Of a stretch of DNA of 64,000 bases, positions 12,568 through 14,752 are shown piece by piece. A program made the translations under genes and the position numbers. The notes beneath the pieces were generated by a model that was given only the letters and a program-made list of their open reading frames with translations, did no database searches and was not told where the DNA came from. This DNA comes from Rhodoblastus sp. 17X3 (GTDB lineage Bacteria; Pseudomonadota; Alphaproteobacteria; Rhizobiales; Beijerinckiaceae). How positions within the stretch are numbered: position 1 is the stretch's first letter; the number at the start of each line of letters is the position of its first letter. The stretch lies in the NCBI RefSeq assembly GCF_030056575.1, contig NZ_JASHHX010000010.1, positions 62,001 to 126,000 on the forward strand. Direction: 5' to 3'.

Positions 12568-13350
12568 CTATTCGACGTCGGGGCCCTCGCCCTTCGACAA
12601 GGCGCGGATCTGCTCCATGTCGAACTGGGCCAGCATGACGATGGCGCGGGCGCGGTTATAGACCTTCAGCTTGCGCAGGATCTCGCCGACATGGGCCTTC
12701 ACGGTCGTCTCGCTGATGCCGAGTTCATGCGCGATGACCTTGTTGGGCAGGCCCTCGGCGAGCAGCTCCAGCACCTTTTTTTGCCGTGCGGTGAGCCTGT
12801 TGAGACGCGAGAGCAGGGAATCGCCCTCCTCCGGCGGCCCGCGATCCGGCGGCGCCATTGCGCCGGACAAGGCGCGCAGGTGCCGGTTCAGCGGGTCGGT
12901 CATCATCGACGCCATCTTGCGCGCCGAGGCGAAAAATTCCGTGACGCGCTCATTGACGGTGTCGCGCTGGCGGCGCGCCAGCTCGATCTGGCGGCTGGCG
13001 AGTTCGCCCGGCGTCTGGGCGGCGCCCAGAGCCTCGAAGAGGTCTATGGTCGCGAGCGCGCTGTCATGGATCGAGCGCAACGCCCGCGCCTGGAGATCCT
13101 CCAGTTCGGCCGCGATCTTCACATTACTGCATTCCACCGATTCGGCGGCCTCCTCGACCGCGGTCTGCAGCAGGCCATAAGCCATGCGCACCTGACGGGC
13201 GAAAAGGTTCGAAGTCGCATGCGGATCGTCGGCGGCGGGACCGGGCAGCGGTTCACTCGAAAGCGCGCCATCTATATGCGACGCCGTCAGCAGATTCCGC
13301 CCCTGCGCGACCCGCGCTTTGCTGCTGCGGCTGTCTTTGACGATGGGCAT
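12568..13350 (-). CDS. Phasin-like domain fused to LuxR-type HTH regulator
   Basis: A 260-residue predicted transcription regulator with an unusual architecture. Residues about 50-150 are an amphipathic helical domain like phasins, the polyhydroxybutyrate granule coat proteins, including the hallmark A-Q-T-P-G-E-L-A-S-R-Q-I-E-L-A-R-R-Q (111-128). Residues 186-242 are a NarL/FixJ-type LuxR helix-turn-helix (L-T-A-R-Q-K-K-V-L-E-L-L-A-E-G, V-I-A-H-E-L-G-I-S-E-T-T-V-K-A-H). No receiver domain is present. The start at 13350 has AAGG upstream; an in-frame ATG at 13434 is less likely because it lies inside a palindrome (13418-13434). Inferred role: sensing PHB granules through the phasin-like part and controlling storage genes. 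Confidence 0.75.
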   Translation of the reverse strand: MPIVKDSRSSKARVAQGRNLLTASHIDGALSSEPLPGPAADDPHATSNLFARQVRMAYGLLQTAVEEAAESVECSNVKIAAELEDLQARALRSIHDSALATIDLFEALGAAQTPGELASRQIELARRQRDTVNERVTEFFASARKMASMMTDPLNRHLRALSGAMAPPDRGPPEEGDSLLSRLNRLTARQKKVLELLAEGLPNKVIAHELGISETTVKAHVGEILRKLKVYNRARAIVMLAQFDMEQIRALSKGEGPDVE

Positions 13351-13417
13351 CTGGCGACCTTGAATTGACGTGAAAGGGGCGACCGGCAAAGCGCCGCGGC
13401 GAGCTTCCATCATTCCA

Positions 13418-13434
13418 ATGCTGCAATGCAGCAT
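13418..13434. promoter_or_regulatory. Perfect palindrome ATGCTGC-AAT-GCAGCAT upstream of the phasin-LuxR gene
   Basis: Two 7-bp arms with a 3-nt centre, 68-84 bases upstream of the chosen start and between this gene and the divergent metX-like gene. The core CTGC-N3-GCAG is the form I recall for PhaR repressor sites in Rhodobacter and Paracoccus; that link is from memory. It is a candidate operator for autoregulation or PHB control. Confidence 0.6.
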
Positions 13435-13618
13435 TTCAGCAAGGTGCGGCTATAGTACTTTCTTACATCCTCGTCGCGCGGCCCTGATTTTTCCCCCGCC
13501 TTCGTCCTCCTGAACAATCTCGGCGCGCGGCGGGCGAACGCCTGCGGGCCTCGAAATATTCACGAAAAGAATATAGTGCCGATCAGGCCCCATTCCAACG
13601 CTCCCGAAAGGACAGCAC

Positions 13619-14752
13619 GTGGCGGAAGATCTCCTGGTCACAAAGCAGCGTTTCGAGCTTCCCGAATTGCGCACGGTCGGCGGCGCGACGGTCCGCGACG
13701 TCGCGGTGGGCTATGAGACCTATGGCGCGCTCAACGCCGCCCGCGACAACGCCATTCTCGTCGCGCATTATTTTTCCGGCACGAGCCACGCGGCGGGCCG
13801 CTATCGCCCGGACGACCCCCTGCCCGGCTATTGGGATTCGATCATCGGGCCCGGCAAGGCGGTCGACACGGATCGCTATTTCGTCATCGCTTCCGACACC
13901 CTGGTCAATTTCAACGCCAACGACCCCAATGTCGTCACCACCGGCCCGGCGAGCCTCGACCCCGCCACGGGCCGTCCCTATGGCCTGAGCTTTCCCGCCG
14001 TCGCCATCGCCGATTTCGTGCGCGTGCAAAAGGCTCTGGTCGATTCTTTCGGCATCAAGCGGCTTCATGCGGTGATGGGCCCCTCGATGGGAGGGTTGCA
14101 GACCTTCGAATGGGCGGCCTCCTTCCCGGATTTCATGGAGCGGATCATTCCAGTGATCGCCGCCCCGAACTTCAATGGCTGGCTCACGGGCTGGCTATCG
14201 ATGTGGACGCAGCCGATCCGGCTCGATCCCGACTGGCGCGGCGGCGCTTACTACGACGGAGCGGCGCCGCGCGCCGGACTCGAAGCCGCGATGCGGATCA
14301 TGACCTTGCACGCCTTGCATAGCGAATGGGCCGACACCGCCGGCGGGCGCGCCGTCGCGGAAGGCGGCGATCCCGCCGACATCGCCTCGACGCCCTTCGC
14401 CATCGACAAGACTCTGGAAGAGGCCGTGCGGGCGCGTGCGCCGATGGCCGACGCCAACCACATGCTCTATCTCGCCCGCGCCAACCAGACCTATATCCCC
14501 GGCGCCGGGGCGGGCGCGGCGAGCGTCGCCGAAGGCCTTGGGCGGATCAAGGCGCCGACGCTGCTGATCTACGCGCCTGACGATCTGGTCTTTCTGCCCG
14601 AATGGGTCGAGGCGACCGCGAAAGCCCTGCGCGGCCAGGGCGTCGCGGTCGAAACCGCCCAACTCGCCGGTCCCTATGGCCATTACAACGGCATCATGCG
14701 CATCGCCGACGCGGGCCCACAGATCGCCGATTTCCTCGCGCGGCGGATTTAG
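13619..14752 (+). CDS. MetX-family O-acyltransferase (alpha/beta hydrolase fold)
   Basis: A 377-residue protein related to homoserine O-acetyltransferase. The triad is intact: nucleophile Ser156 in M-G-P-S-M-G-G, Asp near 321 in Y-A-P-D-D-L-V and His355 in P-Y-G-H-Y-N-G. Family markers include the L-V-A-H-Y-F-S-G-T-S-H-A-A-G strand and I-G-P-G-K-A-V-D-T-D-R-Y. Genuine MetX usually has G-G-S-x-G-G at the nucleophile; here it is G-P-S, so the acceptor may not be homoserine. The start is GTG with GAAAGGA before it. No other methionine genes adjoin and no SAM riboswitch was recognised upstream. Confidence 0.75.
   Translation: MAEDLLVTKQRFELPELRTVGGATVRDVAVGYETYGALNAARDNAILVAHYFSGTSHAAGRYRPDDPLPGYWDSIIGPGKAVDTDRYFVIASDTLVNFNANDPNVVTTGPASLDPATGRPYGLSFPAVAIADFVRVQKALVDSFGIKRLHAVMGPSMGGLQTFEWAASFPDFMERIIPVIAAPNFNGWLTGWLSMWTQPIRLDPDWRGGAYYDGAAPRAGLEAAMRIMTLHALHSEWADTAGGRAVAEGGDPADIASTPFAIDKTLEEAVRARAPMADANHMLYLARANQTYIPGAGAGAASVAEGLGRIKAPTLLIYAPDDLVFLPEWVEATAKALRGQGVAVETAQLAGPYGHYNGIMRIADAGPQIADFLARRI

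Follow-up and report, generated by a model that had tools for sequence, protein, structure and literature searches.

On the minus strand of the window, by which we mean the whole analysed stretch of 64,000 nucleotides from Rhodoblastus sp. 17X3, lies a gene whose predicted product joins a phasin domain to a LuxR-type DNA-binding domain. The gene and the parts of its product are as follows.

12568..13350, minus strand: phasin-LuxR fusion gene with a product of 260 amino acids (open reading frame, Pfam, orthologs in 7 of 11 congeneric genomes).
13207..13350, minus strand: variable, fast-evolving N-terminal tail, residues 1-48 (alignment, dN/dS).
12877..13206, minus strand: phasin domain, residues 49-158, predicted to be helical and amphipathic (Pfam, phasin profile, low-confidence model, dN/dS).
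12967..13020, minus strand: phasin signature AQTPGELASRQIELARRQ, residues 111-128 (translation, ortholog alignment).
12820..12876, minus strand: interdomain linker, residues 159-177, variable in most ortholog pairs (alignment, dN/dS).
12634..12798, minus strand: LuxR/NarL-type helix-turn-helix (HTH; GerE), residues 185-239 (Pfam; best-predicted part of the model).

The two domains, already suspected in a preliminary description of this DNA, were both recovered with hmmscan against Pfam: Phasin_2 (PF09361) matches residues 64-156 with 32.0 bits (cut-off 24.9, E 1.5e-7) and GerE (PF00196) residues 185-239 with 72 bits (cut-off 23.5). The statement that the HTH comes without a receiver holds as well, since no Response_reg domain is present among the 21 Pfam families listed at E<=1. 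The NCBIfam model TIGR01985 ('phasin') matches residues 51-155 at 25.5 bits and stays far short of its equivalog cut-off of 99.7, so that the protein is not classed as an ordinary phasin. Translation likely starts at 13350, because in most orthologs a start codon is found close to the equivalent position and a second in-frame ATG further upstream, at 13434, falls within a predicted operator (see below). An AlphaFold model computed from a two-row alignment has a mean pLDDT of 50, with long helices at low confidence in the N-terminal part and 10-residue block means of 74-84 across residues 181-230 of the HTH. The sequence search of solved structures with residues 1-180 gave a single weak match, to YajQ (E 0.24).

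By sequence comparison, the N-terminal part is homologous to the stand-alone phasins of the same genome. A genome-wide search with Phasin_2 gave seven matches, six of them above the cut-off, namely five stand-alone phasins, all without an HTH, and the fusion gene. When the fusion protein itself was compared with the whole genome, stand-alone phasins on contigs C12 (E 1.9e-9) and C68 (E 2.3e-6) were detected. The profile check proposed earlier for the N-terminal part was also carried out with a profile of the five own phasins, which gave this part 49.9 bits (E 8.9e-14, Z 4000) and the seven orthologs 31.0 to 49.9 bits; 981 of 1000 residue shuffles received a score, with 7.2 bits at the top, which rules out a chance resemblance of helical sequence. 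With hhalign, 109 columns of fusion protein and phasins were aligned at 96.7% probability. In the reverse direction, a profile of the orthologs detected three of the five own phasins below E 0.001 (54.8, 20.2 and 17.4 bits) and not the other two (9.2 and 3.6 bits). All seven orthologs match both Phasin_2 and GerE at E<=0.1; the curated Phasin_2 cut-off is reached in four (32.0, 29.6, 29.3, 26.9) and slightly missed in three (24.0, 22.5, 22.4). The proposed phasin hallmark AQTPGELASRQIELARRQ, whose counterpart in the C12 phasin is SPGELAPLQSAFAEKQ, is well conserved across the seven orthologs, with PGEL kept in each of them. The largest hydrophobic moment is 0.55-0.62 in the orthologs and 0.47-0.59 in the five own phasins. 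The phasin domain of the fusion is rich in arginine (10-16 Arg), whereas the stand-alone phasins are lysine-rich there.

The DNA-binding part has a close relative in the same genome, the NarL/FixJ response regulator L003, whose HTH region shares 51% identity with the one in the fusion; L003 possesses a receiver (Response_reg), which the fusion lacks. From this likeness the fusion may have arisen by a phasin taking the place of the receiver. Three receiver-HTH regulators with the same type of HTH (L003, L094 and L161:192-848) adjoin genes that by eye resemble PQQ-dependent dehydrogenases. Two larger groups of matches were set aside. A wide family of apparently full-length matches (residues up to 49-250, about 35%; for example L004, L096, L105 and L109) consists by eye of receiver-HTH proteins and was not reckoned among the fusions, L003 being the one checked with Pfam. 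Among plasmids, 543 records matched, but in no record did a single place account for 80% of the query; the two that were inspected, H1 and H2, represent by eye a large regulator plus a receiver-like protein.

Of the 11 genomes of the genus, seven carry an ortholog (G000, the genome of the window, and G002, G003, G006, G007, G009 and G010), and none was found in G001, G004, G005 and G008; among named records the closest match, a Rhodoblastus MAG, has 94% identity. Across six ortholog pairs, the phasin domain shows a dN/dS of 0.06-0.33 and the HTH one of 0-0.28, compared with 0.40-1.04 for the N-terminal tail (the four of six pairs with unsaturated dS) and 0.08-1.73 for the linker, which is a short segment. 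Purifying selection acts on both domains; the tail drifts, as does the linker in most pairs. In all seven genomes the gene is flanked on one side by zapA and on the other by a divergent alpha/beta-hydrolase gene, whole or as a remnant, and ZapA, DUF4164 and hydrolase domains were identified at the locus. The hydrolase gene of the window (13619-14752, plus strand) is presumably related to homoserine acetyltransferase; in G002 and G007 it is reduced to a short remnant match and the fusion gene is retained. The four genomes without the fusion carry zapA and the glycolytic genes in unchanged order, with no fusion match there. In an unrooted tree of three genes from 10 of the 11 genomes (G010 omitted, G003 lacking the third gene), they form one clade with a support of 100, so that one loss or one gain would suffice.

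In a sample of 397 genomes of the family, which we take to be Beijerinckiaceae, 12 matched the seven-ortholog profile at E<=1e-24: the seven orthologs and diverged relatives in two further genera, one in g17 and four in g163. NCBI taxonomy places Rhodoblastus in Rhodoblastaceae. Samples of the order (397 genomes) and the class (385 genomes) gave phasin-spanning matches in our genome only, among the matches listed, and a wider profile led to the same result in the order sample, again among the matches listed; in all of these samples at most six candidates were scored per genome, and more distant fusions may be missed. On the earlier question of how many genomes hold this architecture and whether they all make PHB (polyhydroxybutyrate), 12 of 397 genomes in the family sample have a match, and each carries phaC and phaR. 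The four genomes of the genus that lack the fusion were checked as well and also have both genes (16 of 16 in total), so that PHB synthesis genes do not predict its presence.

Together with a second member in our own genome, six diverged members are available. The g17 member shows a weak Phasin_2 match in Pfam (17.4 bits) and the other five none. These five score 21-60 bits with the ortholog profile, their N-terminal region still being alignable and their HTH kept, and only 3.9-6.4 bits with the profile of own phasins, so that their phasin ancestry rests on a chain via the orthologs. In three of the four g163 members (L151, L152 and L153) a conserved cysteine-rich stretch, CPRD[IV]TCLHLGDWNRCNSCF, is found where the phasin signature would be expected; it could serve in metal binding or redox sensing. 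The second member of the genome of the window, L002, is diverged and shorter (225 amino acids read) and lies at the end of contig C32 (L165:1-8080). It has neither a Phasin_2 match in Pfam nor a good operator (matrix score 7.4). L002 is located directly downstream, and on the same strand, of genes for an AMP-binding enzyme, an acyl-CoA dehydrogenase, a thiolase and a 3-hydroxyacyl-CoA dehydrogenase/enoyl-CoA hydratase, a beta-oxidation context which is suggestive and not more than that.

The region upstream of the fusion gene contains two further conserved elements.

13416..13436, no strand assigned: predicted PhaR operator CAATGCTGCAATGCAGCATTT (letters of the plus strand), with the inner 17 bases palindromic except for the centre base (motif of PMC12542648, upstream alignment, weight matrix).
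13450..13462, minus strand: conserved box GAAAGTACTATAG, a short way upstream of the operator (upstream alignment).

The predicted operator supplies a link to PHB from evidence that the preliminary description did not contain. According to the available part of PMC12542648, PhaR of Sinorhizobium meliloti recognizes the motif WNWD2NYGCRNYGCRNH2WNW, backed by gel shifts; guaB, a motif-like site among those assayed, showed no binding. The accessible text of PMC10888616 likewise speaks of a PhaR box rich in TGC. The site lies 65 bp upstream of the fusion gene and fits this motif at 20 of 21 positions, a count that discriminates poorly alone, since the weak site of L002 reaches 19 of 21. A weight matrix was made from eight gel-shifted S. 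meliloti sites (five 'efficient' and three 'weak'; other sites and the unbound guaB excluded). With this matrix the operator scores 24.7-27.3 in all seven orthologs, 54-94 bp before the start (the 54 bp of G009 being approximate), and the palindrome, ATGCTGCATTGCAGCAT in our genome, shows only small changes among them in surroundings that mostly drift. In five of the six diverged members a site with a score of 16.2-25.9 lies at 58-64 bp; the weakest, in G584, is marginal and falls under the 99th percentile of random stretches. For G538 an internal ATG (5664 of L162) was taken as the start, the first ATG (5616) lying 14 bases past the palindrome. In G009 and in G520, the g17 member, both arms are altered jointly (TGTTGCATTGCAACA, TGTTGC...GCAACA), as expected of a site with two-fold symmetry.

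Within the genome of the window, three of the five stand-alone phasins have a predicted operator at their promoter (24.9, 22.5 and 17.1) and two have no good one (2.1, and -1.5 for the second gene of a close pair). Random stretches of this genome (up to 3000 draws, minus the few on the fusion gene) have a 99th percentile of 17.1 and a maximum of 24.9, the latter being the score of the C12 phasin site. These stretches and 146 upstream regions come from loci that were partly chosen for phasins or operator-like sites, which inflates the upper tail; in the comparison of the 146 regions the fusion gene was not among the reading frames picked, and its site is counted under the divergent gene. Allowing up to one mismatch, TGYTGCANTGCARCA occurs at six places in the genome versus two for the reversed control, and the sole exact match in 4.18 Mb is the fusion promoter. 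In the genomes without the fusion no site of such strength was detected in the 900 bp after zapA (best scores 1.2-10.0). We also considered the operator as an element of the divergent hydrolase gene and rejected this. G002 and G007 retain the site with a mere hydrolase remnant, which suggests that the site goes with the fusion gene; besides, the hydrolase copies in the four fusion-less genomes score at best 2.0-5.3, and five of the six diverged members have the site without a hydrolase neighbour (tblastn on the fetched stretches). The fusion gene is probably PhaR-repressed and expressed together with phasins during PHB accumulation. The neighbouring box GAAAGTACTATAG, largely conserved in the seven orthologs (GAAAGTAC in six, GAAAGTCC in G010), is possibly a promoter element; a sigma-70 scan showed no promoter-like site at the box and a single match further upstream, at 13570-13598.

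As our main reading, which we hold to be evenly balanced between right and wrong, we propose a transcription factor of the PHB regulon in which a phasin domain replaces the receiver in front of a NarL/LuxR-type HTH and which divides between granule surface and DNA. The computational support for it, all of it predictive, covers domain homology, purifying selection, a fixed locus and the putative PhaR operator. Without PHB, PhaR would repress the fusion gene along with the phasins; when PHB builds up, PhaR would be titrated onto the granules and the fusion protein made together with the phasins. Its phasin domain would then adsorb to the granule surface or join phasin oligomers, which would keep the HTH off the DNA. 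As the granule surface becomes smaller or fully occupied, oligomers left free may bind DNA through the HTH and adjust genes for carbon storage or mobilisation. The fusion protein would in this way form a second, PhaR-controlled layer of storage-to-transcription coupling. More tentatively, and short of even confidence, we suggest a granule-anchored factor, in which the PHB surface sequesters the LuxR-type regulator by way of the phasin domain and the quantity of stored polymer sets promoter occupancy, as a second tier below PhaR and in a small family with a diverged N-terminal sensor. Evidence against the main reading comes from the four genomes of the genus that have phaC and phaR and do without the fusion gene. 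Also weighing against it are the three orthologs slightly under the Phasin_2 cut-off, the five diverged members with no Phasin_2 match, the two own phasins and L002 with no good operator, the arginine in place of lysine in the fusion domain, and the low-confidence model, which lends the N-terminal part no structural support.

Several other explanations have to be weighed. It is rather unlikely, in our view, that the phasin domain is merely a helical oligomerisation module of a receiver-less LuxR-type regulator, or its contact to other phasins, with no binding to granules. LuxR-type HTHs usually act as dimers, and a module of this kind would agree with the five diverged members that show no Phasin_2 match and still have an alignable N-terminal region together with the HTH. 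Coiled-coil oligomerisation is moreover suggested to be common among phasins in the available part of PMC5658603. However, a plain oligomerisation module does not sit well with a hydrophobic moment near that of the own phasins, with the PGEL signature in all seven orthologs, or with a predicted PhaR operator like that at three of the five phasins.

Rather unlikely too, to nearly the same degree, is a function as a tether which connects granules with DNA so that they are positioned and segregated, the HTH being used for anchoring and not for gene control. An HTH of this type is usually sequence-specific, and that of the fusion is strongly constrained. Precedents for a tether are PhaF and PhaM, which, in the accessible parts of PMC3574117 and PMC9049629, combine granule and DNA binding and act in granule segregation, but the binding of PhaF to DNA is described there as non-specific and the C-terminus of PhaM as histone-like. 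The predicted co-expression with phasins would suit a structural granule protein, whereas the four fusion-less genomes retain phaC and phaR. Finally, the palindrome accompanies this gene family in three genera and the empty sites carry nothing comparable (1.2-10.0), as an autoregulatory site of the fusion protein would, with a PHB link through PhaR that is only apparent, but this is very unlikely given that S. meliloti PhaR bound sites of the same motif in gel shifts (available text of PMC12542648) and that alike sites precede three of the five stand-alone phasins; PhaR and the fusion protein could also share one site.

Returning to the proposed granule-responsive transcription factor, a comparison with described systems places it next to several known granule proteins. 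By analogy, PhaF of Pseudomonas putida, which the preliminary description did not name, is a conceptual precedent and the closest one. As far as the available text of PMC3574117 and PMC5658603 goes, PhaF is a phasin with a DNA-binding tail, in the same order of a granule-binding domain followed by a DNA-binding part, and it affects pha gene expression (PMC5658603, PMC3574117 and, likewise in part, PMC9049629). Unlike the fusion, PhaF binds DNA non-specifically through short C-terminal repeats; the NarL-type HTH sets the fusion protein apart, going by these partial descriptions. Consistent with this, its C-terminal domain was identified as GerE and not as a histone-like repeat tail, and Phasin_2 was the sole phasin family among those listed in the Pfam scan. 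PhaM of Cupriavidus/Ralstonia is likewise a phasin-like granule protein that also binds DNA, but it has a histone-like C-terminus with PAKKA motifs, and no HTH is mentioned in the accessible part of PMC9049629. With PhaR/AniA the fusion shares the proposed logic of a protein divided between PHB and DNA. As the preliminary description had already pointed out, PhaR is built differently: the PHB_acc_N and PHB_acc domains are not matched by the fusion protein in the Pfam scan and are encoded elsewhere in the genome, by the phaR gene on C67. In the regulatory hierarchy PhaR probably stands above the fusion gene. The Phasin_2 phasins share the homologous N-terminal domain and, in three of five cases here, the predicted operator, but not the HTH nor the richness in arginine.

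A phasin joined to a LuxR-type HTH was not found described in the literature covered, in which subscription journals are thinly represented. A granule protein that also touches DNA is of a known kind. In the accessible literature, sensing of the size of the PHB store is mainly explained by PhaR titration; if our reading is true, the fusion protein would represent a second direct reading of the polymer surface, itself apparently PhaR-controlled, and stored carbon may steer gene expression directly. This would offer a naturally occurring component for making gene control respond to polymer in bioplastic producers, and it suggests a route by which a response regulator can swap its phospho-receiver for a storage-granule domain.

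The PhaR regulon of S. meliloti extends well past granule genes (available text of PMC12542648), so that a site alone does not show a granule role. At a locus on contig C8 that was picked for its PhaR-type pattern (L212:3643-4230), a gene which by eye resembles an acetyltransferase has such a site 79 bp upstream with a score of 23.7, and it is a possible further target of PhaR.
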